DNA of 64,000 nucleotides from Pseudisothecium myosuroides (taxonomy: Eukaryota > Streptophyta > Bryopsida > Hypnales > Lembophyllaceae): assembly GCA_951799445.1 (NCBI GenBank), contig OX637295.1:25110001-25174000 (forward strand). The letters run 5' to 3'. A model generated the notes under the pieces. The model worked only from the letters and a program-made list of their open reading frames with translations. It made no database searches and was not told where the DNA came from. Every line of letters starts with the position of its first letter. The stretch's first letter is position 1. Shown piece by piece: positions 6,139-30,757 of the stretch. A program made the position numbers and the translations under genes.

Positions 6139-6147
6139 TTAAATAGG
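6139..6147 (+). promoter_or_regulatory. TATA-like box in LTR copy 1
   Basis: TTAAATAGG occurs at the same place as the better TTATATAGG of copy 2 (19573), within a block that is nearly identical in both copies. It suggests plus-strand transcription and one decayed base pair in this copy. Confidence 0.5.
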
Positions 6148-6558: not shown

Positions 6559-6581
6559 ACGTGGCGGGGACCCCGCCACGT
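6559..6581. promoter_or_regulatory. Perfect GC-rich palindrome with ACGTGG ends, LTR copy 1
   Basis: Eleven-base arms (ACGTGGCGGGG and its complement) surround a single A. The right arm runs into CCACGTGG, a G-box core of the kind bound by plant bZIP/bHLH factors. It is preserved exactly at 19990-20012 in the other copy. Confidence 0.6.
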
Positions 6582-9780: not shown

Positions 9781-10165
9781 CTATAGGATAACGTCACCTT
9801 TAAGCTTCTCAACCCATAGCGTCATTGTGAAGTTATTGAATAAAACATATAATAATATGTTTTTACAATATGTACTGATATACAACAGGACACCGTAAGA
9901 TGAATGGTGCTAAGAAGGATTGAGTCTCGTACCATGGAAATAATGAGTCGGCCGGCACGACAACGAAGTTCTGTCTCGCGCGCAGTATTGACTTCGGTCG
10001 CGACTAGAATCAATGTTGCGAATTGGTAAGCTCCTTGCGCTGCAGGAGTTGATGGTGTAGGTGCTTGATGTGTTGCAGCCGAGTCGGCAGCATCCACCAC
10101 GGCTTCTGCGGCGATTTGAGAAGTTGCGGTATTGTCTACAGTTACTGAGATCGGTGTTCGGGGAT

Positions 10166-10276
10166 TGCTATTTTGCGTGTGTAGAGATGCGAGCGTAGAG
10201 CGTAGAGCGTAGATTTGCGAGCGTAGAGCGCTAAGAGTTAGTTATTTTTTGGAATGCGGGCAATAAAGTAAAAGTT
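10166..10276 (+). repeat. Left terminal inverted repeat of the large transposon
   Basis: Contains several GAGCGTA units in tandem (10190-10240). It aligns with the reverse complement of 30374-30474 over its whole length with substitutions and small gaps. Confidence 0.75.
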
Positions 10277-10326
10277 ATAGAACATTTTAAGGGTGCATAC
10301 TCCAGGAATTTATAATAATGACGGAC

Positions 10327-10860
10327 CTATGACCGTGGGTTTAGGGGGCAAGAATATGGTGGAGAGGAATTTTAGGGTGTCAGTACACGTACCGTCAAGA
10401 AGTCAAAAGTCCGGGGTAACAGTCACAGGGTCCTATAACCGTGGTGATAAGGATTTAGGGTGTGAGAAGATATGATATCTGTGGTTCTCGATCGAAGCGA
10501 GAACAAGAGTAGAAGGGAAGTCGAGTGGGAATGAGGAGGTATTGTTTACGAAATTGCAAGAGTTAGGGAGAGTACATGATGGAGATTGGGCGCGGAGGAG
10601 TGAGGAAGAGTAGCTACCATGGTGGTAGAGGAACGGATTTCCTGGCAGTTTAGCTTATGTTTAGGGTTTACAACGCGTAGGCAAACAATTTAGGGTGCGG
10701 AGAGATGGTTGTTTCAGAGTTTAGGGTGATTCCGAAACACTTGAAAGATAGACGAAGTCGGCCTCGACAGCGGAAGTGGGTGTAGGGATTCAGAAAACCA
10801 AAAAGGCTTGGATATTAGACAGACGTTTAGGGTTTAGGTCATGCACTTACAGGACGAGTG
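10327..10860 (+). promoter_or_regulatory. Left subterminal region: CTATRACCGTGG and TTTAGGG motifs
   Basis: CTATGACCGTGG (10327) and CTATAACCGTGG (10433) are followed by at least eight TTAGGG/TTTAGGG units, near 10340, 10371, 10453, 10563, 10661, 10689, 10719 and 10826. There is no ORF of note. Such clustered subterminal motifs are the usual transposase-binding layout of cut-and-paste elements. That role is an inference here. Confidence 0.6.
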
Positions 10861-11020
10861 GGAAATATTGCAGGAACTTCTATAGGGTTTGATTATGGAG
10901 CAAGTAGACAGCAACAACTGCTGCGTGCACAAACTCTGGCGGTGGCCCTTCAAGTCTCACCGCCTTCTCTTTAAAGTAGGGGAGAGGATCACATTGCGAT
11001 AACAGGACTATTCATGCTCA

Positions 11021-12001
11021 CTATGCACCGTAGTGTTTTCGTAGCAGAATCTGTAGAACCTGTTTTATCTCATTCCAATTGAAACTAGGAGCGTGCGTAA
11101 AGATATTTACCTCTGGATCTAACCCGCAAACAATGACGAATATATAGTACAAGTGCTTACAATATGTCCATGCTCCTCGCTTGCCAAGTGACTTTTGTGA
11201 CATGTCATTGAACGATGGGCAGTCGCAGCTTGGGAATTGACCAATCGTCAGCAAATACCTAGATACCTTAGAAATATTTCTAGACTGTAAAGTAACAATG
11301 CAGCCGAGAGCTGGAGGAGGAACCATTAGAATACTGCAAATCTCCCCAACAATGGACAAAGCAGAAGTGTAGTTGTTGTGATGCTTCGTTGTTGGAGCGG
11401 CAGGGTTCCTCCGAATGTTCTTCCCGTATCGCTTGGTGGGGTGATCTAAAGGATTTGGAGGAAGAGGATAGTCGCCCAGGTTTACAGAAATGCCTTCCCC
11501 AAACAACTTTCGAGGGGATAGCTATTCGCGCTCCATAAGGTTGAATCCGGCGTTTTTGAGATTCAGAATCTCTTTCCTTGTCAAGTTCGTGCCCATCTTA
11601 ACAGGCCAAACATCAGGGACGATAGGTTTAGAAACTACCCATTTTCGCCGAGTTCCATTAACATAGCGATTGATGTCATCATTGCAGAAGAAGAACTGCA
11701 TGTTCTCCAATCTGACCTTCTTGTAATTGTCCATCAATCTGGTGTAAGTTGGGGCAGCTGTACTTCGATTGTCCTGCACAATCCTTGCCACGCATTTCTT
11801 TTTTGTCTTGGCCTGCAGAGCAAAGCAAGCTTTTGCAGACGTCCTCGGGAGTCTTGCGATATGCCACTGCCGCTCATCGCAAACAGTCTCCTGAATTGAT
11901 TTGACATGCTTAGCCGGAGAGTGGGTCAATGGTGACAGTAGTGGGGGAGTAGTGCCTTCTTCTTGGCTAAGTTCGAATTCTGATTGTGGGTCCTCGGTGT
12001 C
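11021..12001 (-). pseudogene. Transposase C-terminal part with SWIM zinc finger
   Basis: On the minus strand one frame runs from about 12001 (DCAYDTEDPQ...) to a stop at 11522. A second open stretch follows at 11506-11021. The second stretch holds a clear SWIM finger: C94-D-C96 ... C116-K-H118, within SCDCPSFNDM...WTYCKHLYYI. SWIM fingers close the C-terminus of many Mutator-like (MURA/FAR1) and some other eukaryotic DDE transposases. The piece is separated from the transposase core by the capsid-like unit at ~12020-15470, and it has the same strand and order. An internal stop or an unrecognised intron separates the two stretches. Confidence 0.8.
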
Positions 12002-12019
12002 GTACGCGCAATCTAGGCG

Positions 12020-15000
12020 TAAGTATCCTTAACACCAAAATGATGATAAGATAACACGAAATATCGTCCCAGGAGATTCTAGTATGTTTCAGCAAGCTAA
12101 GGAGTTTCCGGATTGTAATCCAAACAACAAAACCCCAAGCAACACCTCTTTCTTTTCCTATTTCTTATACAATGGTTTTCCGGATCCTGACCCGGATCTA
12201 TCTCTTTCCGGTTTCCGATTTGATCCGGATTCCGGGTCTCACTTCTCGACTTCAACTGGTTTTCTATTCCCCTGTTTTACCCTCAGGGTGTCCGCATTTG
12301 ATCTTTAGAGGGGTAGGAACGCACCACTCATAGACATCTATTTCTCTGTACAAAACTTCACACAACACAATACTAACCGAGTTTTTATTGTAGGATAGAG
12401 AAGGTAATAATCCTCACAACTCCCCGGGTAGCTTGCCCGGAAAACAGATCACTCAGGATTGCATCCTTCCGCTTCTACTACAACGACAGATCAAGATAGC
12501 CGGAACTGGAAGAGATTCGTGCATCTATCTACCAGACTGATCCTATGGTTGGCAGACCTTCCGGTGAGTGGGTATTTTCCGCTGGCGGTCGCTTATCTCC
12601 GCTCAGAACCCTCCCTGGATTCCGGACTCGCATCCGCACCACTCCTTAGAACCGGATCACTGTTACGGCAGTTTAAAGGTACCACGCACAAGTCCTTACT
12701 CACAAGTCCAGTAAAGTTTCTTCACAAACTTACTCGCTCAAAACAGGTCCAACTAATTCTCAACCCGGATTCCTCCTCATCCGCCCTCTCTCACACTTTC
12801 ACCATTCATAAACGACTCAAGAAAACGCACACATAGCCAAAAATCCGAATGTCCACTTAGTGGCTCAGATTAGAGAAAAGAGAATATGAACATAAACTAA
12901 TGCACACAAAATGGGCAAGGCTGGAATGAAAGGGCAACAAGCTACCCTTCCCTTAAAACCCAAACAAAAAGCCAAAAAAAGAACACCTGAAAATCCAGGT
13001 GACCAATCAGTAACCAACCGTAATATCCGGAAAGTTCAAAGTCAACTACTCCTAAGAATCCGGAACCGGGTCCCACGCACGGAAAATCCGCTCCAGATTA
13101 AAAATCCTAAAACTGCAAATATACTAATTACTTTCCCCGCTTTGATTTCTTCGCGCTGCTACTTGGTCCTGCAGGTGGTTTCCTGCTCCCTTTCGGTAGA
13201 GTAGACTTCGTTGCAGCCCGGGTCGGAATCTTCCGTTGGATCGGCGGCAGGTCGTCATCCGAATCCGTCTCATCACCGGAAGTGAATTCCCCCTTCTCGG
13301 ACTCCTGAATCATCTCTACTCTGGTCTCCTTCTCTGGCGAATCGTCCAGCTGAATCGGTGTTGTATTTCTCTTGGGCGATGCCTTCTGCATATGAGTAAA
13401 GTCGACCGGATTGGTCCAAGCCGGATTCGACAAGGCCCCCATCCGGTGGATTAAATCGCTCCGGACGGATGTCCCGGATGCCGGAACAGAACTCCCTGCT
13501 TCTACCGGAATCGACTGGACACTCCTCGTCTGGCCGAACTTAGTGGTCTTCGTCTGGATCCGTGCTTGATCTGGAGTAGGTCTTGGGGATGCCGGTAAAC
13601 CGATCCCTGACCCCGGCTTCTGGGGCGTCTTCAACAAGTCAACGTTGGGCAGCTCCGGAAAGTGGGTGAAGTCCAAGGGCTTGTTGGGGTCGAGGTGCCC
13701 CAACAATTGCGCCATCTTCTTCAGAATACCTTCCATCCGGGCTTGGAAGTCCACCAAGATCGTTACTACCTTGGACCCGAATAAGTGGCCTATGCCACTC
13801 AGCTGATTGGTGAAGAGTCGGGATTTGACCACAGCCTCCGCGGGCTGCTCCACCAACGCGGTCAAATTGTGGACGAGTTGGAGAGCTTCCGCCTCCTTCT
13901 GCCGTGCAACTGCGGCATCCGTATCCGCCCAGTTCACCCGACCTAATAGGTCATCCCTTTCCTTCTTCAAGCTCTTGATCCGCTCGTCCTTCTCATGAAT
14001 CAGATCCGGGCTTGGTAGTTTCCGGATCTGATTTATGATATCTTCCGGCTCCACCTTCAGTTCTGCAGCAATCCCTAGGATCATATCCGACATGCCGAAA
14101 TACATGTGCTTGGCCTCCTCCATCCACTGCGTTCCGGCGTCGAAGAAGTCCGACTGCGGTTCCGGTTCCGGGGGTTGACTCGGCTCTCCCTTTTCCGGGG
14201 TCAGCTGTTCCACCCTCGAGTTCGAATTGGTCGACTTTCTTCTCTTCTCCCGCTTGTCGACCAGGTCCTGCTGCTGCAGTTCTTCTTCCTCGTCCTCGTC
14301 TTCTTCTTCTTCCTCCTCCTCTCCCTCGATTGGAGTATCCGGTGGAATTTCGTGCGTGAGGCCATACTTCACTATTTCTAATCCGGTGTTGTAAATCACC
14401 ATCTCTTCACTAGTCAGCACCTCCTGATGGTGATACAGGTGAAACAGGTACGGACTGAGAAGACTCGGCTTCCCCTTCCCTACGTGCGACACGAGCTTCT
14501 TTACTATCCCGGCTAGAACTTTCCCCCAGTGAACTACCTTATCTTCTAAAGCCCCAAAGACAGTGTTGGCCACCGTAACCGTAACTCGGGTGGGCTTTTC
14601 CGGATACATGATCGGAATCAAAAATTCCAACACTCGTTTCTGTCTAGCGTCCTTACAGTCACTCACTGGGTATCCGTCCTTAGTGATAACCGGATTACGG
14701 AACTTCCCAATCCCGTACGTCTCTACCCGAGAACCTAATCCGGATCCGTTCTTCTCAAACCCGTATACGTCAGCCCATACATCCACCGTCCATGCTCCGG
14801 GTTGGCCTCTCACAGTCAACTCGAACTGATTCGGGACTCCTGAGATCAGCTGCTCCAGCATCTCCGCGTTCTTAACATTCCACGGTCGGTGGATCAAACC
14901 TACGCACTCCATCCGGGTCAGATCTGTCTCTAACTCCTTCCGGTGTGTTGGGTCGGCGGGAATGGCCGGTCTAACTATCCGAGCTGTGACAGAAGGTCGG

Positions 15001-15470
15001 CGCGCTACCGGTTTGCTGGACTCCGCCATAGTTTACCGACACCGACTACTAAATCCGGTGCAATCGGCACCGACCTCACCCGTCTCTCCTTGTCGCGATC
15101 TCTAACTCACCACTCTTTCTCTCAGCTAAGTGCGTAAGACAATCAGCAAGGTGAAGAATGAGGAAGATTAGGTCCGGCGAGGGTTTAAGTACTAATCGAG
15201 CTGCCGACCGTTCCCCTTGGCGAACGGAGAGAGGTCCGTTCCCGTAACGGTTCCCTAGCGACGTAGGTCGGATACCTATTCCGTAGCTCGTTCCGATCCG
15301 ACCTAACTCGGATTTAAGATCCGTTCCTGTTCTCAGAAAAACCCGGTTTACAGGATCTGAAATCTCGGATTCTAACTATCGGAATCTATTCGTATCCGAA
15401 TCTAATTTCCTACTTCTTACCAAATTTTTGAAATTTTTAACTAACTCCTAACCTATTTCTATGCTATCTT
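12020..15470 (-). mobile_element. Unit 1 encoding a capsid-like protein, inserted in the transposase
   Basis: A TCCGG/CCGGAT-rich block splits the transposase between its catalytic-Glu part and its SWIM part. It contains one long ORF (13128-15029), about 1.1 kb of 3' and 0.44 kb of 5' non-coding DNA. A second diverged copy sits at ~24440-27860 in the same orientation. No long terminal repeats, terminal inverted repeats, poly-A tail or certain target duplication could be seen, so the ends are approximate and the element class is open. Confidence 0.5.
13128..15029 (-). CDS. Capsid-like / plant mobile-element protein, 633 residues
   Basis: An intact ORF. Order: a short basic N-terminus, a globular domain of roughly residues 25-225 (VRPAIPAD..., QFELTVRGQPGAW, YPEKPTRVTVTV, LSPYLFHLYHHQEVLT), a long Glu/Asp tract of about 20 residues, a Pro-rich linker, a coiled-coil stretch (ERIKSLKKERDDLLGRV...), a second folded region (VVTILVDFQARMEGIL), and a Ser/Lys-rich basic tail ending KKSKRGK. 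I do not recognise the family by name. The domain layout resembles gag-like 'putative plant transposon' proteins, with a weak match by pattern only. The 25619-27391 copy shares the HPEKPTRVT and LSPY.FHLY blocks. Nothing catalytic is visible. It lies in an inserted unit, so a mobile-element origin is inferred. Confidence 0.7.
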   Translation of the reverse strand: MAESSKPVARRPSVTARIVRPAIPADPTHRKELETDLTRMECVGLIHRPWNVKNAEMLEQLISGVPNQFELTVRGQPGAWTVDVWADVYGFEKNGSGLGSRVETYGIGKFRNPVITKDGYPVSDCKDARQKRVLEFLIPIMYPEKPTRVTVTVANTVFGALEDKVVHWGKVLAGIVKKLVSHVGKGKPSLLSPYLFHLYHHQEVLTSEEMVIYNTGLEIVKYGLTHEIPPDTPIEGEEEEEEEDEDEEEELQQQDLVDKREKRRKSTNSNSRVEQLTPEKGEPSQPPEPEPQSDFFDAGTQWMEEAKHMYFGMSDMILGIAAELKVEPEDIINQIRKLPSPDLIHEKDERIKSLKKERDDLLGRVNWADTDAAVARQKEAEALQLVHNLTALVEQPAEAVVKSRLFTNQLSGIGHLFGSKVVTILVDFQARMEGILKKMAQLLGHLDPNKPLDFTHFPELPNVDLLKTPQKPGSGIGLPASPRPTPDQARIQTKTTKFGQTRSVQSIPVEAGSSVPASGTSVRSDLIHRMGALSNPAWTNPVDFTHMQKASPKRNTTPIQLDDSPEKETRVEMIQESEKGEFTSGDETDSDDDLPPIQRKIPTRAATKSTLPKGSRKPPAGPSSSAKKSKRGK

Positions 15471-15473
15471 CCT

Positions 15474-16097
15474 TTATTCTAAGTTTCTGTGCTCCCACAC
15501 TCGGCAATGCGGATTGAGCCGTTGGGCCTTGCGCCTTGGTCGGGAGACACTGATCTTGTCAGGGCGGTGCGAGTCGAATTCTGATCCTGGAGGGAGATCT
15601 GCCTTTCGCTTCAACAAAACGAACACTTCCTCCCCTTCCAGATGCGGATCACGTGTGCAGAAGACGTCAGCACCAGGCATATTGGCGAGGGCAGCATGAA
15701 GAACCTTCGAATTTCCGGAGCGTTGAGCGGTGCGTTGGGCTGTACGAAGACGGAGTTCTTCTTTCCCCGGACCCATACTTGGCTTTCCACCCTTTAGGAA
15801 TTGGTAGTAGGCAACAACCTGCATGAATGCTCTGACCATGTCATCAACGGAAGCAACGTACAGATCATTCTCTCTTTTTCCTGACTATTGCAACCACTTG
15901 TTGTGGACCGACTCCGCCAAATTACATGAGGGCATCTCGGCCAATTCGGTTGGTGAAAGGTCCTGCACACAATCCTACATGATGAGTGTTGAAACAAGAT
16001 ACAAGACTACAAAACATTCCACGAATACGGAGGAAGAGATACAAGAACTGACACAGCGATGGAGTAGTGCCGATATCGGCATGACCATTGCATGGGG
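15474..16097 (-). pseudogene. Transposase middle part with the likely catalytic Glu
   Basis: After the solo LTR the minus strand carries CNLAESVHNKWLQ, the kind of N-x-x-E-S-x-N block that supplies the third acidic residue in Mutator-like transposases (Glu codon at 15912-15914). DLYVASVDDMVRAFMQVVAYY, a long helical Arg/Gln stretch and a HLEGEEVF segment follow. At least two in-frame stops (near the start of this part and right after KWLQ) and a stop at 15474 break it. It continues after the inserted unit as the SWIM part ending at 11021. Confidence 0.75.
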
Positions 16098-16602
16098 TGT
16101 GGGCGCAAGATTACCCACCCTTGGTAATAAAGCGAACACCGACCAGGTTCTATGCCTTTATCCACATTTTTTAATATATGGGGGTGATGTGAGCGCGGTC
16201 CACTGTGCCTTCTAAGCAATGGATCTTTTTTGCTAACGTTTCCTAAGTTTCGTGGATGGCAGCGAATAATTAGTAATGCATGTAGTAACTCACAAGTTAA
16301 CTGCAATGTTCCGAGTGTTGGTGAAACCCTAACTCCCTAACTATCTATCCTATGTCGAGGGTCGACTGAGTAGTGGTTGCCATTTATAACGTCCCTAACT
16401 ACGTAAAAAGAGGAACCCTTATGTTCCTTCCATGAACCCCTAAGACTATCTTGGGTTTCTAAGACTCCACCTAGAAGTTCTACTTTTTAAAGCTACCCCT
16501 ACAGTTCCAACTTCGGAATGTGACTCTAGATTTACTTCTTTAACTTGGTTCTTGACTACTGACTTGTGCTCGGTGTTTTGACTTTAATTCTAGGTTTCTA
16601 TT

Positions 16603-16886
16603 CCTAAATTAACTCTAAGATTTACCCTTGAATTTTAACTCTATGTTTTAACTTTTAACTCTAAGTTTTTACTCCTAAATTAACTCTAAGATTTACCCTT
16701 GAATTCTAACTCTATGTTTTAACTTTTAACTCTAAGTTTTTACTCCTAAATTAACTCTAAGATTTACCCTTGAATTTTAACTCTAGGTTTTAACTTTTAA
16801 CTCTAAGGTTTTACTCCTAAATTAACTCTAAGATTCACCCTTGAAATTTAATCTTAACTTTTTACTTTTTACTTTTTACTTTCTAT
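16603..16886 (+). repeat. 71-bp tandem repeat in LTR copy 2
   Basis: CCTAAATTAACTCTAAGAT begins at 16603, 16674, 16745 and 16816, so the period is exactly 71 bp over three full units plus a partial one. In copy 1 the same zone is scrambled. Confidence 0.85.
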
Positions 16887-18803
16887 TTCCAACTTTAACC
16901 CTATCGTTTTAATCCTAGATGAACTCTAAATGTTACTCCAAGTTTTGACTTCTATTTTTCTTCCCTATTCCTAGCTCAAAAATCTACTTCCTAAGTTGAT
17001 TTTCAATTCTACTGTTGACCTCTACTTCCTACTTTAGTTTTTGACTCCCTAAAGTTAGCTCCAAATTTTGACCTCAGAAGTTCATCTTTTAAAAAGTAAA
17101 AGTGTAAATTGATTCTAATTCTAACTGCTAATTAATCCCTAATTTTAATCCTAAATTCTCCTTCTAATTTAAACCTAATTTTCGTCCATGGTTCTTTTTG
17201 GATGAAATTTTATTCAAAATTCCTCCGTCCTGCCCCCTATTGCTTAACTTAGCCTAACGCGGTCAGTTTACGGTCAAATCTTAATTATAAGCTGTTTTCG
17301 GAAACCTCTCTTCCTAATCTACCAACTTTTGAATCTAAACTTCTAATCTACACTAATCTCGGATGCTAATCACGCTCTATGGGCAGATTAGGAAAATAAA
17401 TGCTAATTAGGGAGAAACATCAAAGATTAAATCAAAAACTCACCTCTTCACTACCGGTGTCGGAAATGACTTCGTCCACGTCCACGTGTACATCCTCACG
17501 CTCCATGATAGTCTTTGGCTTTGTTTTGAATTTTTTCCAAGCTCACCGCTTATTGAGAAAATATTACAATTTTTGATGATCTAAACTCCCTCTTTCCCTT
17601 CCTTCTTTCTTTTCTTTATTCCTCTTTCTTCTACACTAGCACTATTCCACCTAAGCTTTTATGAGTCTTACACTATGGTTTCAAACTACGAGAAGGGTTT
17701 AAATGTTCTTCCTACCCTCTTACGCAACCTTGCTTTGTGTCATCCTAATCCTCCTCCCAACGGTTGCAAGGAGTTCTTCTAGATTTCCTACCTAATCTCC
17801 TAGCTAGGCACTATTCATCGTCTCTCTCCCTTCCACTCCTATAACACATCTTTCTCCCTAATTTCCTTCCATTGTGTGTAGGTGTGAGTGGTGATGCAGG
17901 TTGAACCGGATGTTTTTGTGCAGGTGGCGCGTGGAAAGGCAACCTCTATTTCTCCCTCCTCCCTTTTGTATTTTTAGCCCTAGTCCTACTTCAACCCCTC
18001 TTAGCACAAAATTAGTCCAACATGCTTTTGGTTTGGTTTGCCTTTGTTTGTGTTCGGGTTTGGGGAGAACCAAAAATAATAAAAAAAACCGAGAGAATCT
18101 AAAATTTGGGGAGGAGCCCGAATGGCCCCAGCCTCCCCTGCTGGACTGAGAGCTGCTGTACCGAGAGAGCTGCTGTATCGGAGAGCTGCTGTACCGGGAG
18201 AGCTGCTGGCCCTCCGGCTGGCTGGCCTTCCCGGCTGGCTGGGGGGTTGGCCAAAATTTTTTAATTAATTTATTTTTTTTTCGGTTATGGTTGCTGGTTC
18301 TGCTTGTTGGCTGGCTCGTTTGCTGGTCTGATGTTGGCTGGCTCGTTATGCTGGTCTGATGTTGGCTGGCTCATATGCTGGTTCTGGAACTCGATTTCTG
18401 ACTAAGGCTAAAAGACTAGAATTTTGGCTAAGGCTGAAATAAAAAGACTAGATTCTTGCTAACCTAGGGGGGGATAGAACTTTGGGGGGTGCTAGATCTA
18501 CTAAGATTTTTGGGATACAACTAACTAAATAAAACTTTGGGGAACCACTAAACTCTCTTAAACTTTGGGAAATGACTAAACTTTACTAAGTGCAAAGGAA
18601 CCTACATATCTTGGAAGCTAAACTCTGGAGGTTTCCACAAAGGTCTTGGAAACTAGACTTTGGATCTAAACACGGGGGAGGTGCAAAGCTTCGCCGTGAA
18701 ATTGGTTTTAACACCAACTTTAGGACTTCTAGACTCCCCGGGGGTTCAAAGCTCCGCCGTCTACACTTTTAACATACGCTTTAGGACTTCTACTTTATTA
18801 CTA

Positions 18804-19140
18804 GTTCAAAGCTTCGCCGTTTCCAAGGGGGGTCCACACACTGAGAGAGACTTTAGAAGAGGGAAAAGCTAAACTTTTAAGGAAAAACAACCACACGTGC
18901 GTTCAAAGCTTCGCCGTCCCGGAGGGGGGTCCACACAGTGAGAGAGACTTTAGAAGAGGGAAAAGCTAAACTTTTAAAGAAAACAACCACACGTGAGTTC
19001 AAAGCTTTGCCGTCCCTGAGGGGGGTCCACACAGTGAGAGAGACTTTAGAAGAGGGAAAAGCTAAACTTTTAAAGAAAACAACCACACGTGAGTTCAAAG
19101 CTTCGCCGTCCCGGAGGGGGGTCCACTCAACAAGGAGAAG
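18804..19140 (+). repeat. 96-bp tandem repeat with AAAGCTTCGCCG core in LTR copy 2
   Basis: GTTCAAAGCTTCGCCG (one T variant) begins at 18804, 18901, 18997 and 19093. Each is followed by a G tract, GTCCACAC and an A-rich CTAAACTTTTAA segment. The period of 96-97 bp is a multiple of three, which creates long but meaningless ORFs on both strands. It lies about 500-800 bp upstream of the TATA box, so an enhancer-like U3 role is possible. Confidence 0.85.
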
Positions 19141-19572
19141 GTTAGATGAGGTTGTAAGGAAAAACACAAAGAGAAACACACAAGTTAGACCACGAAAAAC
19201 ACAAAGCTCACACGCTAAAGGCCCCCCAAAGCGGCATCGCCAAGGTACAGTGGGGGGTGACTTTAGAATTAGTGCAAGATACAAAAAAAAAGGACTCTTA
19301 AACTTCACAAGTTAGATCACAACACGTACAAGAGGGAGAGAGAGGCTCTCCACTCACAACAAAGTACCAAAAACTTCACAAAAGAGTACACAAAACAAGG
19401 TAGAAGGACCCCCAAGGACCTTCAAAGCTTGAAAATAAGCAACAATGGAGCCAAAAGTGCTCCGAAAACACCGTAGAGGTTTTTGGCTTCAAACGCCAAA
19501 ATATCCAAAATAACTTGGACCCACGGACCCAAAACAAGAATTGGGGGTGTTCTAGAGAGAGAAATGGGGCCC

Positions 19573-19581
19573 TTATATAGG
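19573..19581 (+). promoter_or_regulatory. TATA box in LTR copy 2
   Basis: TTATATAGG within a block conserved with copy 1. It sets the LTR orientation as plus. Confidence 0.6.
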
Positions 19582-19989
19582 TTTCCAAGGGCTCACCCCT
19601 CCCTCTAGAGTTCTAAGGTAACCTTATCAACGGGGATTTTCATCCTCATCCTCAAAGATTTTCATCCTACATCCTAAATTTCTACTTCTACCATCTAGGC
19701 TGGACCAACATCCTAACTTTTGGAGATTAACTCCAATCGCCAAACGGATTGCGCCGTTGGATCCAGATCGCCGTGTTTAGTCCTAAACCCCCCTCACCCC
19801 GTACCGAGGCCAAAAACCCATCGTAGGCTAATTTAGTTTAAAAACCAAATCGTGCTAAAATCTTAGATCTTGGGGGTCTCCTATTTTGAGAAATGTGAAT
19901 AGCCTAGGGTCTCCGGTAGGTGCGAGAGAGTCGGGAAGGATTTTTGGTTGACTTCGTTTCGCCATCGTATGGTCCCGGAATGCCGGTCA

Positions 19990-20012
19990 ACGTGGCGGGG
20001 ACCCCGCCACGT
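19990..20012. promoter_or_regulatory. Perfect GC-rich palindrome, LTR copy 2
   Basis: Identical to the palindrome at 6559-6581: eleven-base arms around one A, followed by a G-box-like CCACGTGG. Confidence 0.6.
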
Positions 20013-20873
20013 GGTTAATTCCCGAGGAATCTCGCTGGTTCAGGTACTTGTCGCTATCAGAATGTCGTGAAACTTCACGGAGCGCATTATTAACATAAAA
20101 CAAGCTAGTCTAATTTTTAGTGAGATTTTATTGTAACCTGGGTAATTTTCATGAAATTCCCGTTGGAGGTTAGGAGGGTTGACCACCCGGAAAAAAGTTC
20201 TTTTGCAAGTCGGAAGATGCCGGGATTTTTCATGTGACCTCTCAGGGAGTCGCATGAAAGACGTGCGGATGTATTTCCGTACCTGGCACGATTGGTCAAT
20301 GGAGATTAAAACTGGACATCTCCTCGAATTAGCAATGGTGCGGGAATCTTCTGCAGATGGAAGAATCTTGGCGAACCGATTTCGCCGTTGGACTCCTGGC
20401 ATGGGATTCACCCTAGAACACCATCCTTGGGCTGTAGATTCCTCCACGGGCCCGGTCTTGCGTGAGTGGCTCCTGCATGCTAACAATCGGGATTTTGGGA
20501 ATTCGTCGATCTAATGGGGAATTCTAAATCTAACTCTAGGACCCGACCTAATGGCCTCGCTGTGGATCCCTCGGACCGACCTAGCCATGAATCGCCACAT
20601 TCATGGTGGGATTTAGCCTTTTTGGGGCTGTGTGACTCGAATCCTCTAAATCTAACCTTTTCGTTATTTCTATACTATTTTTAGGCAAGGTTTGGGGGAT
20701 TTTAAGTAAAAAACACAAATCTAGACCAAATACTATAATGGGTATGACACAACCCTATTTCGGTTCTACACTCTTTTTATGGATTTTTCTATACTTTTAT
20801 CAACTTTAAATTGCAAATTTCCAAAAAAATAATTCTACGAGTCCCAAGTGACAAATTGGGAGCTCACATGGGG

Positions 20874-23077
20874 CGAAATGAAGAGATGAACCAACTGAAG
20901 CTTGCACTTACCAGTTCCATGAATCTTCCCCATTGGCGGTATCGGAAATGCCAGAATGCTAGCCATAAGTCGAGTCTTGGAAGTCCTTCATCAGTTGAAG
21001 CTCCAGATGATAACCACCATGCACGAATGGCCAAATACCTACTCTGAGCCTCCTCCAAAGACACAGAGTTCTTGTATTGTTTACAGAGGGATTGATGCTG
21101 ATCCTACAAGTCTGCTCTGATATCTGCCTTCGTGTGTTTTTCAAGAGATTGAATCCAGTGGAATAGGCAAGTCCTCTCGCGGTTGGCCATGGGGATTGTT
21201 GGGTCACCTGAACCGTATACAATACGTACAGCATTCCAGTTTGCCTGTGCACTGTCTGCCATAAACCCTTTGAAATTTGGATTAGTAATACCATGCCTAG
21301 AAGACACAGCATTCAGATTCTTCCAGAACACTTGTTGAGCTGCCACATCTTCAGATTGCATATCGCAAACAACAATAGTCATGATGCGGCAGTATGTAGA
21401 ATCATAGACATGACAAGCCATTGTGGTCCAAGACTTTACCCGTTTGACATGATTGAACATCATCCACGCATTTTCCAAGTCGCCTTTGGCTTGCATACGC
21501 CTGACCAAGTCGACCCCACTTCCGGAGCCCAATTCCGCCATCTTAAAAATGAAGACCTTGTCAGAGTCCGCTCCTTGTCCCGGAAACCTGTTCTCCTGGA
21601 TGAAAGCCCAGTTGCTGGAGCCTCTCAGTTTGGTGATGCTATCTAGGACTCCAAAACGACGGAGGTATCGAAAAGTGATAACCTCGTTTCGAATACTCGG
21701 AGACGACATTTGCTTACATTTGTCCAAGACGGGGAGTAGTTCCTCAATTGCTAGAGTCTTCTGAGGTACACCTTCTGGACATAGAAGTAATTCGCCAAGG
21801 TACTCCTTAGTCTCCTCAAGGACGATGGCAGAGTTTGTCGCTGATGGAGCCCTTTCTACATGTTCGCCAATAAGACTACGGAGTTTGGCAGCTGATTCTC
21901 GGTAATTTCCCTGCTTCACAAGATGTGAATGGAATCCAAGATGGATACAGGCACGGGTCATGTAACTTGGGCCGTAAACATAATATATCTTTGCAAGGCA
22001 ACTATCTAAGCAAGCAGGCTTCACAAGGCAGAGGGCACAGACGACAGTAGAATTAGAGGGGGGATCAGATCCGGGAATGAAGGCAGAGGAGGCAAGACCG
22101 TCCCACTCAGTTTCATTTGACTGAGACAAACGGTTGGGCCGACTTCCATATTCGCAATCAGTATTCGTGCAACGTAGATGTCCCAAGCAATTAGACAATC
22201 TGAATGAAAGTTGAGATGCTGATTGGATATGGATAGTAGCCGTTCGAGTCCAAGCATGTCCATCATCCTTTTTATCCATGCCATGCAGCTGCCCGGCCTT
22301 GGTGGATAGCGGATACTTCCCCACTGGAGGGAGCTCAAAGATAATATCACCATTAAAATCTGGTGGGAGATGTTCTACCTTCTCTATCGTAATTGAATTG
22401 TAATCTAACTTGCTAAGAATTGACCTAGCGCCCTTGTTGGTATTCAACTGGCGAAGGTAGTGGACGATACTCTTAGCAGGTGGCAAGGGAGGCTTAGAAG
22501 TGGATGGACCTGAACGACGGGAGGGACATGACTTAAGAACGGAAGGTGCATTCACGACCGGGGGTCCTACAAGGTCGGGAGCAGTAAAGTCAGGCGTGGA
22601 AAGGATGCAGTCACTATCAAAATCATCACTGAGAACGAGCACTGGACCATCGACATTCTCTAATTTAACGTTCCGAAGCATTGGGGTGACCTCTAATGTT
22701 GCAGAAGACCGTCTTGGTGTACAATTGACCATATTGTCCTTTATTCCATACACGCGATAGTTTTCGGGTGACAAAGACCAGACCTCACTGCCAAAAGAGT
22801 CACATGAAATCTGCGCTACAGTGTGAGAGAGTTGCCTCGAGACTGGGTTAATAACGTCCAAATCCAAATGCAAAGTACCTTCCATAATTTGAAACCTGGA
22901 AGCCAAACGAGAACCAGTAACTCTAGTGAAGCCATCTTGCCCCACGACGAAAGAAATCGGCACTGCTAGTCCATCTCCTCGAATTACAACCGCATTGCAA
23001 ATGGCATCTTCCAAGGTAGACATGACAACCCTAACTCTTGAGAAGGCAACACGACAAACATGCAACCTAAGTGCCAA
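20874..23077 (-). pseudogene. Mutator-like DDE transposase, N-terminal and catalytic part
   Basis: Starts at ATG 23077 and is open for 657 residues to a TAG at 21104, then continues in the same frame (DQHQSLCKQY...WLAFWHFRYRQWG) up to the solo LTR. Residues 300-390 form a Cys/His cluster: C303, C308, C347, C350, C356, C360, C377, H379, H383 and H385, probably zinc-binding. The catalytic region shows D559 in HVYDSTY, VVCDMQSED, D608 in FMADSAQANW, then C637-x2-H640, the CxxH that follows the second Asp in Mutator-like transposases. Glu and SWIM parts lie at 15.9 kb and 11.3 kb. It is transcribed away from the methyltransferase-like gene. It is inactive because of stops and insertions. Confidence 0.85.
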
Positions 23078-23899
23078 ACGAGGACCAGGTAAAATCTAGC
23101 TATCGTATTCCTAGAATAAGTAAGGTAGAGTTCGAGGAGTACGTCAATAAAGCGTACACTCATTTCATAACTAAAGACATGCCACCACTTCGTAGTTCAT
23201 TAAGGCAATGTAGTACTGAACCAAACTTTGTGGTACACGTTCCATTCAATTAGTATCCGTTCCCAGTACCAGTGCACACTGTCGACCCCGCAGCCAGTTG
23301 CAACTGGCTGGATTTTGAGATGCTGCACAATTTACAATAATTTAATTAGACTACATATTAGAAGTACGCGTGGAGGGAGGAGCAGTCCCTTAGTTTATTT
23401 TTTAATAGGGGACCACTCATTAAATAGCTAAAACTACTACAAATGTAATTAGGAGCCCATAGGGCTATAACTAGTTTTTCTTCCGTTTATTGAACTGCCC
23501 GAGGACAACCATCAATTGAAGTGTCAGAATATTCAAACCCGCAAACTGGAGGTGGGACCAATACCGTAGAATGAAAACTGTCTCCATGATATTGAGCTCC
23601 ATGTTAAATGAGTTATGATGGCGCCATGGATTCGAAGAGACCGACCTATCATTAGTCATCATCGGCCCGCCAGAATGGAATGATGCCATTAGTGTTTCTC
23701 ACTTGAGCTTTAAACCAGTAATCATCCGTGCTTGATGGCATGTCTGAAGGGTTCAGCATCCCTTTAGGCTGCGTAACCTAGTCTTTATGGCGCAAGCACT
23801 TGAAATGAAACGTAAATAATTGCTATGATACATAAATAGGACTAGGGTAATTAGTATTGTGTGGAGTGGAAATGACAATGAATTCCTGCGCCCTTTAGA
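23078..23899. promoter_or_regulatory. 822-bp divergent intergenic region of the transposon
   Basis: Lies between the transposase ATG (23077, minus) and the methyltransferase-like ATG (23900, plus). A TATA-like CATAAATAGG sits at 23831-23840, about 65 bp before the plus-strand start. No clear TATA was seen for the transposase. No ORF worth naming. Confidence 0.45.
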
Positions 23900-24227
23900 A
23901 TGCCAAAGAGACGGAAACGACAAGCTTTGTATTTTACAAATCCGAAGCGCCTGAATAGGTCTAGGATCATGAGGGAGTTGCGATCAAACGCTAGGATAGC
24001 TTCTGCAGGAGAGACTGTTAGAGTCCTAGAATTTGCTAGCACAAAACCATCAGGTAGCAAAGTGCAGGTTCTTCCTTCAGGTACCCTTACACAAATTGCA
24101 GAGGGCACGATGGGCCGAGGACTTCCAGAGAAATCGTCCCCAGCCAGCAGCGAAAGCGGAAGTACACCTGATGAGAGTGCTGGTGATCGTGCAGAAGAAT
24201 CGAGTAGAGAGGCCACTCCACAGCGAG
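23900..24227 (+). pseudogene. First exon of the methyltransferase-like gene
   Basis: The ATG at 23900 opens a 109-codon frame with a very basic start (PKRRKRQALYFTNPKRLNRSR, a likely nuclear-localisation region) and a Ser/Glu-rich end. It stops at a plausible splice donor (AG|GTAATG at 24227/24228). A possible short next exon follows an acceptor at 24398, and then the second capsid-like unit interrupts the gene. Linking this exon to the methyltransferase exons at 27.9-29.2 kb is an inference from strand, order and position inside the same transposon. Confidence 0.55.
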
Positions 24228-25618
24228 GTAATGTGACGATTAAATTTTTGGTTCATTCGCTAACATCATTGTTGGTGTTCATGAAGGTTTTGTCATCAGT
24301 ACCTTATGCATTGAGTACGGGGAGTATTCCATAAACTCAGGTTCATATAATGATCAAGTCTGCGCAGCCTTTATCAATTCATTGCAAACTCATTGCAGGT
24401 GGGAGTTGCTAGAGGTTTGTCGCAGCACAGAGTAAGTGAATTCCCTATTATACTCCCAAAAACCACTCTAAAGCATAACAAAATGACTCTAAAGATCGAA
24501 CCCACGAGATTCTGTGAAGTGTCTAGCTCTATTCCCAACTTAAGCTCCTGTCAGTCTCCAATTTCTACTTTCCGGTCCTAGATCTAAAATCGGAAACAAC
24601 AACACACCGAAAACAACGACCAGACCTCTCTCTATTTCTTCCGGTCTGTCAAGCTATTCGGTCCTGTAAAACTACCACAACCCAGGATCCTACAACTTCT
24701 GATCCTGGAACTCCTCTGGACCGATCCATTCCGGTCCGCTTACACTTATTCTCACTCTACTCCGGTTTAGTTTTGCCTCTGTTTCACCATCAGAGGGTTC
24801 GCCGCTTGCTTTTGAGAGTGGCAGGCCCGCCACTCCTTCCATAAATTATAGTGGCTGAAGACCCACTTCTCTAATCTACTACTTCCTACACTAGCGCGGA
24901 TCCGGTTTGATCTCTCACAGCCACCCGGATGGCGATCCGGTTTGCAGGTCACACAAAGACCCCCCGTACGATCCTCTCATACTACAACGACCTTGATGCC
25001 AAGTTCCCTCCGTGCAAAGTTAGGTGGTTACAAGCGAACTCGTCCGTTCCAACATCAACTAAAGTCCTTCCGTTTACCAACTGGGGCAACGAGACCTCAC
25101 GGGAGATCGGACACTCAACCGGATTTCCTATCCAGGAGTTCTAGCGCGACTAAGGACTCCTTCCCTATCCGCCTAGCCTAACAACGGCTTTCTCGCCCAG
25201 AATCGTGAACTATAGAAGTGCTGAGGCACTGAAATCCGCTCCCAACACTTAGAATACCCACTCACATGCACATAAGAGCAAAACAAACGCACTAAGGGGA
25301 GAAATCTCTCTAAAATCTGCATACATTTTCCTAACTCCTCACCAAAACAGCCCTGCCATGCGCGGGAGAGACGTACAACAAGAAGTCAATAGAAAACGCA
25401 CAAAAACTCAAGGGAAAAGACTCCCAGTCTCCTTCGCAGAGACTGACTAATATACACTTTAAAACTCAAAAGTCAACAAAAAGGGGCCCGGAAAGTCCGC
25501 GCGGAACTTTCGGTCCCTGCCGAGCCGGCCAGACCGGAAAACATCCGATCCAGACCAGACACACCGGATCAAATCCGGTCCGGTCCTAACTAACAAATAT
25601 TTACAACTAAAATCCTAA

Positions 25619-27391
25619 CTATCCTATCATAACCGGATCTACTCCTTGATCCGTTCCTTCGTCCATAACTTGGTCTTCACCTTGGTCCACGCTCTGATCT
25701 CGTTCTTGATCCGCACCCTGATCCGGAGTCAGATCCATACTTTGATCCTGCCCCTGGTTCAGTGTGGGACTTCTAGGCGGTTCCGTTCCAAGCTGTTCGA
25801 AGATGTTCGTCAGATTTTGGTTCCGCTCCCCGGTTTCACGTTCTGGGAGATCTGGTGACGAATCCAGGTTGATGGTGTGCGCGAGCTTCCTCCCACTCTT
25901 CTTTGACTGGGGAGTTCCCTCCTTTCCTTCTGTCTGAATGCCCACGTTCGGAAAAGACCCGGGCATTGAAAGGTCGGACAGATGGAACGACCGTGACAAC
26001 GTCACTCCGTTCAGCTTTCGGCTGCTCTCCTCCATCCGGTTTGCTGCTCCCCGTGCTTCTATCATCACCAATTCCACCTTCTCGGAGTAGTCCGTCAAAA
26101 TCCGGACCAACCTGGTTCCGGATATTTTCTTCTCCTTGAGGACTCCCTTGTCAAACAGCTTGGACTTGGTGACGGCCTCTCCGGTTGCCCCAAACGTGGC
26201 CTTCACGTCCTCGGCTACTTTCCGGGTAGCCTCTGCCATCTCCCGTGTGGTGGCCATGTCCTCCTTGAGGAACAACAATTCCGTCTTCAACGACTCATTC
26301 TCCTCTTGGAGTTGTCGTATCTCCGCTTCTTGTTTTCGGATCTCATCCGGGCTGGAGATGAACTCTGCAACCACTCCTGCAAGGTTGCTATCCGCTGGTG
26401 CTCCCACCAGCTCGCTGATCTGGTTCAGAATCAGCTTCTTCACTGTCCAGTCTGCTCGAACATCGCTCAGGATGTTGATCAGCTGGTTGAACGGATCCGT
26501 CGGATCCGATCCGGAAGGACCCGGTTCTTCATAAACCGGTTTCTTCCCAGGGTTCGATGTCTCACCCGGAGGGGTTGGGGTTCCTCTCCGGTGAGGAGGC
26601 GTTGTCTTCTGCCGCTTGTGCTGCGGCCGGTGTTGCTCCTCCTCTTCTTCTTCTTCTTCCTCGGAACCGGATACTTCCTCTTGTTCTTCTTCCGATTCCG
26701 ATTCCCCATACTTCAGGAGTGACTCATGAGTCTTCCGCTCCTTCTCCTCTGTATCCGTGAGGAGTTGATTGTGCTTGTAAAGATGGAAGATGTAGGGACT
26801 CAATGGAGTCGGCCTACTTCCTCCGATCTTTGGAACCAGACGGGTGACCAGATCGGAAAAGATCCTGGCCCAGTCCACTTTCCGTTCCCCGCTCAGGGCT
26901 CCAAAAATCAGGTTCCCGATGGCAATGGTCACCCTCGTCGGCTTCTCCGGGTGGATGATCGGAACCAAGAACTGCAACAGGTTGCGATGCCGGTCTTCCA
27001 GACAATCCGCGACCGCATGCCCATCCTTCGAGTCTACGTCGCTCCGGAACTTCCCCCGAGTGTATCCTTCCTTCGAGGAGGCCATCCCTCGACCTCCGAA
27101 CCGGAATTCGTACACGGACCTCCACATTTCTTCCGTCCAACTGCCCGAAATTCCGCGGATGGTCTTGTCGAACTGATTCGAGAGTTTCCCCAACAGCTCT
27201 CAAATCATCCGTTCCTCCCTAAACCCCTAGGGTTTATCGATCAGTCCTCCACAACCCATCTTGGCAAGATCCTCTATCAGGTTGTCCTTTTCCTTCTCGT
27301 CTGCTGGAATAATCGGACACACCTTCCGGAGTTTAACTTCTACTGCGGAGGAACTGGACGGTCCTGCTCTACTCTTGCGGAGCTGAGGCAT
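25619..27391 (-). pseudogene. Capsid-like / plant mobile-element protein, second copy with two stops
   Basis: The paralogue of the 13128-15029 protein. The open part from 27193 has 524 residues. The frame continues upstream to an ATG at 27391 (MPQLRKSRAG...), giving the matching N-terminus (CPIIPADEK...MGCGGLIDKP), but a TAG and a TGA break it about 40-60 codons after the start. Shared blocks: IHPEKPTRVT, LSPYIFHLY, an acidic tract of mixed Glu runs, a coiled coil (EIRQLQEENESLKTELLFL) and LVRILTDYSEKVE. The tail is a run of DQ-containing imperfect repeats (DQGADQERDQSVDQ...), unlike the basic tail of copy 1. Translation could only start downstream, so it is probably dead. Confidence 0.75.
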
Positions 27392-27662
27392 GGACACGAG
27401 CTGTGCTAAACCGGATTCTCACTGAGGCTACCTTTCCCTCTCCTAGCCGCACGTCCCGTTTCTCACCTTCGCTCTTCCGATCTCAACCGGAATACCTCTA
27501 AACCTGCAACAAACTCTAAAGCGCTGCGCGCTCTCACACACACACGCACACACAAACTCACAAAACAAGGGAGCAAATCGCTGAGGAGGAAAGCTAAGTA
27601 CGCGCTGGAGCACGATTTTTGCAAAAGAATTTTGAAAAAGAGTGGCAACTGGATTGGTCAGC

Positions 27663-27671
27663 CTATTTATA
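27663..27671 (-). promoter_or_regulatory. TATA box of the second capsid-like unit
   Basis: TATAAATAG on the minus strand, about 270 bp upstream of the ATG at 27391. A good match to a plant TATA consensus. Confidence 0.6.
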
Positions 27672-27859
27672 GTCTGATCTGTCATCATGACCAAATCCGT
27701 TCCTGACCCAATCCGCTCCAACTCAGATCTGCTCCAACTCTAATCCGGTTTAGATTCAGATAGAATCCGGATTGTCACCTATTCCGTTCCGTAGTTAATT
27801 TCCGGTTATCCGTTACCTCCTGCTTAATTCCGGATACCAGATCACGGTTTCCGTTCCAA

Positions 27860-29165
27860 GATTTAGATAACTTACAAAAAACCAAAAATTCACATTGCAA
27901 CACTTTGAACAAGTCTTGTCCGCATAGTGGCTTTGATTTGATTCTTGGCAATATTAAAGATGGCCTTTGGGTTCCGTCCATTTCAGTGAACCCCGGCGAT
28001 ATCCCTGCCTGGAATGTATACTCTGAGCAACACACTAAAAGTGTTTTTGAGTTTGCGGAACATTTTCTTCACGGTGCGGGTGCAATTCTGTTGTTTGTCC
28101 CAGATGTTCCAAAGATCAGGACTGATGTGCTGTCCTAAGCAAACGGCTACAACTTCATACTGCATCGAGAGTGGTGGGGAATTAATGACCTATCCTCTGC
28201 GTCGTATTACAACTCAGCAAATAAGGTATTTACCGCTTTAAATCAATTACTGCATTCACTGGATTGTGCTTCAGTTTCTGCCTTATCTAATTCAATTTCA
28301 TCGCAATCTCCAATTCCAGAGCAGAGGATTCCGGATTCAGCTCTTCATTCCCCGGGCCATAGATGCTAGCAAATTCACGATAGCGGCCGACGGATCACTA
28401 GCGGAGTTTGGAATGGGAGTTGTTGAATCCGATATGTTATTCAATTTCACTTCTGCGGCCTCTCAATCCATGAATGGATCTGTTCCATGGAGAGGCGCCC
28501 GCGAGAAGGATCCACTTTTCCTTCAAATGCTGATCGAGGCATTCACGAAGCCGGGATCCATCATTCTCGATGCATTTGCCTCTCTTGGTAAGTAATTTAT
28601 TCTCTTGTTATGAATTTCTTTCATTCACCAGGTCATTTACAAAACTAAATTCTTTCATCCAAATTCAAGTAATTCTATTAGAGCTTGCAAAGGTATTGGA
28701 CGACACATTGCGGCCCTCGAAGACGACGCTGTCATCTTCCGGGCTAAGTTGCAGCAGTTCCACCAGGTCAAAGCTACAGCTCCAGTTCAGCTTTCCGCTT
28801 CCGAGACTCCACCAGAGATTGCACTGGACATCCTTGTTCGCCATATCACTAAGAAGAACAGATTTAGTAAGTACGTCTCGTGCTTGATCCTAGTATCTTT
28901 CAGTCTGCTGTTTGTGATGATTTCACTAACACAAACTCGTTTTGCTCAGAGTGATCACTCTACTCCGTTCTCCGACCAAAGACTATTTTATGGCGCCGTG
29001 GGACGCAGACGTCGCTATGTTGCAGGCGGCAGAGTCTTCTCCAACCTCCTCGCGCAGTGGTAGATGTTTTCCTAGCCTTATTGTCGCTTTATTGATGACG
29101 AGGCAGACGTTGACATGGAACCAAGTCCAGCATCTTCTGGCAGTTCCTCGACTTTTTCATTTTGA
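27860..29165 (+). pseudogene. Permuted amino-DNA methyltransferase-like domain (N6A or N4C type), broken
   Basis: Three to five exon-like blocks. Block 1 (to donor 28225) holds GFDLILGNIKDGLW in the place of catalytic motif IV, then HFLHGAGAILLFVPD, and HREWWGINDL after one in-frame TAA. Block 2 (28320-28587) splices in phase and has WRGAREKDPLFLQMLIEAFTKPGSIILDAFASLG, the motif X / motif I layout (K...L...I.AF..PG..ILD.F). Block 3 continues IRACKGIGRHIAALEDDAV, the motif I tail and motif II acidic residue. The simple splice between 2 and 3 is out of frame by one base. A last block ends in an acidic tail (DDEADVDMEP) with stop 29163-29165. Motif IV before motif I is the order of the beta class of N6-adenine/N4-cytosine methylases. 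The canonical D/S-PP-Y/W is not present, so activity is doubtful. Confidence 0.68.
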
Positions 29166-29386
29166 TTATTTCAGTATCACCCGGATTTATTGTTTGAATT
29201 CTTTTCTCCCACATACATCTTGTGCTTCCATTTGTAATGTTCAGCATCTGTATATGTCGATGTAATGGTTCATTTTAGCATCCATTCTTCTTGCAATTGA
29301 AATAGGTTGTTCACCTTAAATATATCAATTCAAGACAGTCTTCCTGGCTTGGGCTACGCTCTCAAATACTAAGGAATTATTAAACA

Positions 29387-29841
29387 TAAGGTAACTACAC
29401 CCTAAATCGCACAGTTATGCTCTGTGGCGTGATTTGTAAGCTCTGGAAAATGAACAACAATTTTTGAGTATACCTGAAGGACTATGAATCAAAATGTAAT
29501 TGGTTTTATAATTTTGGGATGCATTCTGATTTACTTATAAATTTTCAAAGGTTCAAAGAGTTTAGTGTTAAAAGTGTCACCTAGGTGATGCCAAAATCAA
29601 TTTGATGCACATGATGAAATGTCAAGGACAAAAAGTTAAACGAACACAAAGTGTATCCAAAATGGACCACTTGGGAGGTTGCCACCTCTACATTTCTTTT
29701 AATAGAATTGCACACTACTCCAAATGGGCTCTTACACTTGTCCTTTACTGTGCACCATTTTCAGCTTCCTCCCCATTCGTTTTCAGTTTAAAAATAGGGG
29801 TCGTCATTTAGGAGCGGTCCATTTTAGGTGTGGTTACCTTA
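29387..29841. mobile_element. AGGTA-type MITE a (455 bp)
   Basis: Starts TAAGGTAACTACACCCTAAA. The reverse complement of its end is TAAGGTAACCACACCTAAAA. TA at both ends fits a TA target duplication (Tc1/mariner/Stowaway type). It is nested in the right subterminal part of the large transposon and has no coding capacity. Confidence 0.7.
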
Positions 29842-30110
29842 CACTACATTAAAACTTGAACCCTCTAAAATTTGAGGAAGTTCTTCATGTGTAGTCTCCA
29901 TGATTTCAATCTTCACTTTGTTTATATATTTGTTGCAGTCTGTTCGCTCTATCATTGGTTATGAATGGATGTTCTCGGAGGCCATTTTTTCCCTCTTTAA
30001 TATGACCCTTAATCCACAATAATTTCCAATTTCTTCTTCAACTATTGGAGACACACTCATGGTTGCAGCTTCTTAATGAATATGAAATGGTTCTATTCGG
30101 ATTAATGGAA

Positions 30111-30312
30111 CCCTAAACTCCAAATGTACATTAGTTTAAACCTTAAACCCTAAACCGTGGCCTCAGGATAACAACGGCCATTGGGTGTCCACGGTCATAG
30201 AGTACCTACTCAATTTATTTAAGGAATCGTTTCTGTTTACCAAGAAACCGCCCTGTGTTGCCTATTACCGTGGTCAGTCATTTCTCAAATTTGACCAACC
30301 ACACGGCTATAG
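30111..30312 (-). promoter_or_regulatory. Right subterminal region: CCGTGG and telomere-like motifs
   Basis: On the minus strand: CTATGACCGTGG at 30189-30200 (identical to 10327), CTATAGCCGTGTGG at 30299-30312, and TTTAGGG at 30111 and 30148. Orientation is opposite to the left end, as expected for matched ends of one element. Confidence 0.6.
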
Positions 30313-30373
30313 GGCCCTACTGTTGTAGTTCAATTTTTATTTTGACCTTTTGTTTTGTTTAAATTTTATCTTG

Positions 30374-30474
30374 TACTTTTACTTTTTTAGAATATGCCCA
30401 CTTTTGGGGGTCCCTGCGCTCGCAAAAGTACGCTCACCGCTCTATGCTCTACGCTCACCGCACGCAAAATAGCA
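30374..30474 (-). repeat. Right terminal inverted repeat of the large transposon
   Basis: The reverse complement begins TGCTATTTTGCGTGCGGTGA and follows the left repeat block by block to AAAGTAAAAGT. It reads into a copia gag frame at its outer end. Confidence 0.75.
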
Positions 30475-30617
30475 TCGTCCATTGTTGTTCCGGGAGACTC
30501 GACATATTGCCAGAGTCCTTGAAGTAAGATCATTTTGACCTTATAGCTCCAAATGACATAGTTTGCAAGACCAGCTAATTTCATTGACTCAGGGACGTCT
30601 TTGACGTGTGGGTCCAT
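30475..30617 (-). pseudogene. Ty1/copia gag, N-terminal fragment
   Basis: Starts at ATG 30617. The segment LAGLANYVIWSYKVKMILL is the typical N-terminal copia gag pattern (L.G.NY..W...M...L). It runs into the transposon end at about 30474 after roughly 50 codons. About 140 bp upstream are the primer binding site and LTR below, so this is the 5' end of an element whose remainder is absent from the window. Confidence 0.75.
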
Positions 30618-30757
30618 GTTTTGGCAGTATAACGTAGGACTCTCTAACCCTTGACGTTGTTATCTAAGCTCTCGTAAGCAACATCAAAAAATGAATATCG
30701 CAGTCTATGGTTCTAATTGTTTGAGTGTCTGTGACAACTACCAGATCAAACTTTACC

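Follow-up and report, generated by a model that had tools for sequence, protein, structure and literature searches.

A Mutator-like transposon family of Pseudisothecium myosuroides with a candidate accessory gene related to N6/N4 DNA methyltransferases

Introduction

Maize MuDR and other Mutator-like elements (MULEs) have inverted ends, are flanked by target-site duplications of 8–11 bp, encode a transposase with a SWIM-type motif and sometimes carry a second gene, which in MuDR (mudrB) is described as being of unknown function (PMC6446971). The VANDAL elements of Arabidopsis are likewise of Mutator type, and their extra gene, VANC, counteracts silencing (PMC5735166, PMC10398659, PMC6446971). 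Transposable elements that bear a DNA methyltransferase are represented by retrotransposons of charophytes and dinoflagellates (PMC5890265), and fungal DNA transposons with a TET/JBP dioxygenase also carry the gene for a DNA-modifying enzyme, albeit of another class (PMC12730594); the transposon cases named in the accessible part of the latter source are Vandal, SET and TET/JBP, none of which is an N6/N4 methyltransferase. Here, we analyse a stretch of 64 000 nucleotides from Pseudisothecium myosuroides (the window; contig OX637295.1, positions 25,110,001 to 25,174,000), which contains a 20 kb Mutator-like element with two divergent genes. To our knowledge, genes for DNA-modifying enzymes are uncommon in transposons. 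In literature searches over titles and the beginnings of abstracts (up to 20 records each), mostly of papers open without subscription and outside Repbase, a Mutator element that carries an N6/N4 methyltransferase did not appear. The sequence comparisons presented below suggest that the window element belongs to a family in which the regular second gene probably encodes a DNA-bound accessory protein in three parts, of which the first is ParB-like and the last derives from N6/N4 methyltransferases, with a middle part between them.

Overall organization of the element

The source genome measures 388 Mb, and all of the genome-wide counts given here derive from that single assembly. Ten related copies, selected for their stop-free transposase matches, were read across and fall into four lineages: L010–L015 together with the window copy, L016–L019, L020–L025 with L028/029, and L026/027. 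Alignment to L010–L017 places the ends of the window element (no strand assigned) at 10160 and 30480. The first-pass annotation had proposed a single set of inverted ends enclosing two divergent genes over 10166..30474; the inverted arms and the related copies bear out this arrangement and the reality of the ends, and the copies shift both limits outwards to the positions given here. The left terminal inverted repeat (10160–10226, plus strand) begins GGGGATTGCTATTTTGCGTG and the right one (30414–30480, minus strand) begins, read as the reverse complement, GGACGATGCTATTTTGCGTG; within them, the arms 10166–10226 and 30414–30474 are 61 nt long and 79% complementary. In the copies elsewhere that set these limits, the two ends read GGGGATTGC and GGACGATGC. 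Terminal inverted repeats were detected in five of the 11 stretches (the window, L010/011, L012/013, L016/017 and L024/025) and the ends of L014/015 were recognized separately; no such pair was detected in the remaining five, some of which are cut by the edge of the stretch.

Target-site duplications were examined in six copies. Four of them (L010/011, L012/013, L014/015 and L016/017, the last with slightly different ends) are flanked by exact duplications of 10 bp, a size that lies within the 8–11 bp expected of MULEs (PMC6446971), and L024/025 shows a 12 bp match with ambiguous limits. The duplications of the window copy (10150–10159 and 30481–30490, both plus strand) are worn and agree at 8/10 positions. 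An exact 10-mer occurred by chance in a box of that size in none of 2000 random trials. The window element extends over 20 kb, compared with 12.9–13.5 kb in three related copies, owing to three large nested insertions. Two copies on different contigs are 99.1% identical across 12.9 kb, a sign of mobility.

The transposase gene occupies the minus strand. Its first exon (20912–23023, with the start codon and splice site assigned by sequence) appears to encode an N-terminal domain, a WRKY/GCM-like zinc region and the first part of an RNase H-like domain. The next exon (15511–15962), which extends to a nested insertion, contains the putative catalytic glutamate in the motif NLAESVHN, and the C-terminal part (11021–11997) carries a SWIM-type CxCx19CxH motif. 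These pieces, which had been named previously, are real: a protein database search with the frame 21107–23095 returned 47 relatives at E ≤ 1, and contig L001 also contains this transposase, after which come regions similar to window positions ∼15534–16004 and 11048–11920, with a CxCx19CxH motif. The motifs (CxxH and SWIM-type) and the strand order fit an RNase H-like DDE transposase, with an RNase H part that is of low confidence in the predicted model. A zinc domain of WRKY/GCM type is linked with Mutator transposases, and WRKY and GCM are weak fold matches of the present protein; a comparison with the PDB gave no sequence match. In the window, the transposase is interrupted by in-frame stops at 21104–21106, 15885–15887 and 11522–11524, and residue 548 of the frame (codon 21452–21454) is Asn where the other ten rows of alignment A1 have Asp. 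Judging from the three stops and the loss of this putative catalytic Asp, the window transposase is dead.

Architecture of the second gene

In related copies the full second gene consists of methyltransferase exons preceded by a ParB-like and then a middle part, with GT-AG junctions; from these sites and the open frames we infer that the parts are spliced into one protein. The window copy retains the first exon and three methyltransferase exons, all on the plus strand, and lacks the ParB-like and middle exons. The first exon (23900–24227; MPKRRKRQ...), the splicing of which to the later exons is predicted, is 67–71% identical in three copies and 51–55% identical in two more, and was not found in the other five at E 1e-3. 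The methyltransferase exons are located at 27904–28225 (motif IV, NIKD, which is DLKD in three sister copies; an in-frame TAA lies at 28136–28138), 28320–28587 (PWRGAREK and motif I, DAFASLG) and 28670–28866 (following motif I; SIRACKGIGRHIAALEDD). The transposon with its own methyltransferase gene that was originally proposed is supported as a partnership of genes, but the window copy is broken in both of them.

The ParB-like part is characterized by three boxes (IPLCRM, RP and DGNHR) that are invariant in 10/10 rows; we take the IP..R..RP box together with the DGNHR box to be the signature of a ParB/Srx-like N-terminal domain. PHROG 1033 (ParB) matched one of the two rows compared, at E 0.043, and comparison of this part with the PDB returned unrelated rows only.

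Some copies show additional features around this gene. In L016/L017, a 288 bp inverted repeat (oriented 13350–13637 and 16221–16507, 96% alike) lies between second-gene exons and recurs in L018/L019 (92%). A tandem array with a period of ∼79 bp, present in one lineage (L020/L021, oriented 14069–14909, and relatives), lies upstream of the ParB-like exon. L028/L029 contain, at oriented 1866–3667, a second, divergent methyltransferase copy of the family with motif IV DVPE, near another element.

Methyltransferase-like part

The first-pass annotation had assigned blocks at 27.9–28.9 kb to an N6-adenine/N4-cytosine methyltransferase with permuted motif order. They are exons of a family with 107 database proteins at E ≤ 2.2e-5 and one further at 0.12. 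The Pfam model N6_N4_Mtase matches three rows, two database proteins and one from the L020 lineage, with 30.6, 30.5 and 27.8 bits against a cut-off of 26.7. A 12-row profile compared with the PDB identified CcrM as the best match (5.1e-6) followed by DpnA (4e-5), and 10/11 of the matches at E ≤ 10 are named DNA methyltransferases. DNA methyltransferase families of PHROG match down to 9.5e-9, and hhalign against six phage methyltransferases gave 97.5% over 58 columns. The permuted order is kept, with the exon that contains motif IV preceding that with motif I; the latter reads D..ASTG in most rows and its Asp is present in 95/96. The assignment stands as far as the profile match and the motif order are concerned, but motif IV departs from the canonical tetrad.

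Canonical motif IV is [DNS]PP[YFW], in which the aromatic fourth residue stacks on the flipped base. The six phage relatives all conform at this position (D[LIP]PY in 6/6). In contrast, none of the 11 genome copies has an aromatic residue in the motif, which takes the forms DLKD, DLKS, DIPE, DILE and DMPE, with NIKD in the window; its Asp is kept in ten of the 11. Motif IV is covered by 12 of the 109 alignment rows, of which 11 database rows read D[LIV]P[ED] and the window NIKD, again with no aromatic residue among the 12. As read from these alignments, every member lacks the aromatic fourth residue that marks an N6/N4-type enzyme.

These observations bear first on the function originally envisaged, namely that the second gene encodes a catalytically active N6-adenine or N4-cytosine methyltransferase, through which the transposon would mark its own ends or escape silencing. 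The domain family, the retention of the Asp residues of motifs I and IV and dN/dS values below 1 (see below) would all agree with an active enzyme. We nevertheless regard this as unlikely, as no member read has the aromatic residue of motif IV, against Tyr in all six phage relatives, and the Pro of the motif is also lost in the window lineage and in L016–L019 (DLKD, NIKD, DLKS). Amino-methylation by the second protein is thus possible, but unproven and doubtful, since motif IV argues against ordinary chemistry. Because the aromatic residue has given way to an acidic one (to a K-form in two lineages) in every member seen, we consider the protein more likely to serve in recognition, or to be an enzyme of altered chemistry, than to act as an ordinary adenine or cytosine amino-methyltransferase.

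A second alternative is that the protein methylates RNA or protein, and not a DNA amino group, through the altered motif. The motif is indeed conserved and has not simply decayed, given D[LIV]P[ED] in 11/12 covering rows, and the best rows for a weak predicted model of the second protein include METTL4 and the tRNA m1A58 methyltransferase. With named DNA methyltransferases prevailing in the PDB profile search, we consider this improbable, though less so than the remaining alternatives discussed below.

Linkage and selection

Loci of the transposase were listed with two queries (68 and 65 matches, merged into 94 loci) and those of the methyltransferase with one (144 matches, merged into 111 loci, fragments among them). 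All lists are lower bounds; the queries come from two lineages, so that distant copies are under-counted. A divergent methyltransferase locus lies within 15 kb upstream of 60/94 listed transposase loci and within 30 kb of 66/94; conversely, 60/111 listed methyltransferase loci are so linked at the shorter distance and 67/111 at the longer. On the same strand, a methyltransferase locus within 15 kb upstream was found at none of the 94 listed transposase loci, and the downstream side gave one. Random placement produced a mean of 0.24 linked loci with a maximum of three in 300 trials. In each of the ten copies read across, all three parts of the second gene accompany the transposase in the same divergent layout, and this holds for all four lineages, the most distant of which are 23–46% identical in the ParB-like and middle parts. 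We conclude that the gene partnership is real and conserved.

Ratios of nonsynonymous to synonymous substitution rates (dN/dS; given here without a significance test) were calculated between the window copy and L010/011 and L012/013. They are 0.10–0.13 for exon 4 of the second gene, 0.25–0.28 for exon 3 and 0.50–0.51 for exon 5, compared with 0.24–0.26 for the transposase. Close copies give 0.07–0.75 with few changes, and dS is mostly saturated between lineages. By these ratios, the partnership is also under selection.

The layout and the ratios also bear on whether the methyltransferase-like gene is a captured passenger without a role, as in Pack-MULEs. Fragments of host genes are often found in MULEs (PMC6446971), which lends the idea some initial appeal; one layout across four divergent lineages and dN/dS values well under 1 leave it strongly disfavoured. 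That the two genes are adjacent by chance or through a nested insertion might be suggested by the nested repeats that fill the window, but is ruled out for practical purposes by the excess of divergent pairs over random placement and by the position of the second gene between the element ends in copies with both ends found.

A separate observation concerns the database relatives P0044 (of the transposase) and P0148 (of the methyltransferase), which come from contigs of 619392 bases, probably one and the same; this would represent the linkage in a second assembly.

Interpretation

The evidence described above leads us to favour a Mutator-like family with a regular second gene for a DNA-bound accessory protein, a reading that we hold to be probable and no stronger, as several results weigh against it. 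Pfam gives nothing relevant for the transposase, with neither a MULE nor a SWIM match, so that the assignment to Mutator relies on the target-site duplications, the element ends and the motifs, together with the weak fold matches to WRKY and GCM. The duplication of the window copy is weak evidence when taken alone, since the box contains other near-matches, including one of 9/10 at other limits. Of the 94 listed transposase loci, 34 are without a methyltransferase match within 15 kb, a number that falls to 28 at 30 kb; at least one of the 34, C2:35267973, nevertheless carries the gene, which the query missed. Conversely, 51/111 methyltransferase loci are without a listed transposase within 15 kb. 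The rows of the window lineage fall below the Pfam N6_N4_Mtase cut-off (E 0.017 and 0.031). The ParB-like part has neither a Pfam ParB match nor a phage or plasmid match and owes its label to its motifs. In the copy modelled, the junction of the second ParB-stretch exon with the middle part is out of frame and the exon following motif I contains an in-frame stop; scattered stops are also present in other copies read. Finally, the altered motif IV is compatible with activity.

In this reading, the methyltransferase-like domain derives from N6/N4 DNA methyltransferases of phage type or of bacteria. Through its ParB-like and methyltransferase-like parts, the protein would recognize element DNA and either maintain expression of the element or help it to transpose, a role that could be analogous to the one played by VANC in VANDAL elements or by mudrB in maize MuDR. 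A further-reaching version, to which we give less than an even chance, is that a Mutator lineage of plant type acquired a ParB-methyltransferase of phage type and, while it was kept under selection in several lineages, exchanged the base-stacking residue for an acid; the product would be an S-adenosylmethionine (SAM)-binding protein that recognizes DNA, either without ordinary base methylation or with a new chemistry.

If this version is correct, the protein would represent a transposon-encoded factor of a new kind, one that marks or shields the DNA of its own element. Should the protein be inactive as a methyltransferase, it would be an example from nature of how an enzyme can become a factor for self-recognition; should it be active, it would be a mobile source of N6-methyladenine or N4-methylcytosine in a plant-type genome. 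As at least 111 loci match the second gene in one genome of 388 Mb, some of them as near-identical copies, effects on silencing and amino-methylation are directly testable.

Nested insertions and neighbouring repeats

Two of the three insertions in the window element are gag-like and lie on the minus strand. The first (11998–15510) contains a 634-amino-acid frame (13128–15032), and the other (24418–27903) stands in place of ∼4.85 kb of the second gene, comprising the ParB-like and middle exons that are present in L010–L015. Their gag-like frames (13128–15032 and 25619–27199) look alike, each within a 3.5 kb element in which neither reverse transcriptase nor long terminal repeats (LTRs) were seen. 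The Mutator copy of L010 itself sits within such a 3.5 kb gag-like element. The remaining insertion (16098–20868, no strand assigned) is probably a solo LTR inside a transposase intron. It resembles 2620–7437, and the two form a repeat of ∼4.8 kb that is probably an unusually long LTR, with main pieces that are 77–92% identical; the copy at 2620–7437 adjoins copia-like polyprotein frames (331–2632, minus strand), while that at 16098–20868 stands alone inside the element. A copia-type gag-like frame (30475–30659, minus strand) abuts the right end of the Mutator-like element, and its continuation past the left end was not seen.

Comparison with known systems

The family differs from MuDR in that its second gene has ParB-like and methyltransferase-type parts and in that Pfam is blind to its transposase. 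VANC of the VANDAL elements is not described as a methyltransferase in the accessible parts of its sources, and the parallel drawn with the present second gene is one of proposed role. The DNA methyltransferases carried by charophyte and dinoflagellate elements are C5 enzymes in retrotransposons, whereas the present case combines a DNA transposon with a domain of N6/N4 type. The domain family itself is that of the N6 methyltransferases of phages, prophages and bacteria, such as CcrM, DpnA and those of Wolbachia prophage, and in the Wolbachia prophage genes a ParB-like domain precedes the methyltransferase, as it does here (PMC3089641). The six phage proteins compared have Tyr in motif IV; the present family has the acidic or K-form in its stead, and its second gene also contains introns and a middle part and is paired with a transposase.
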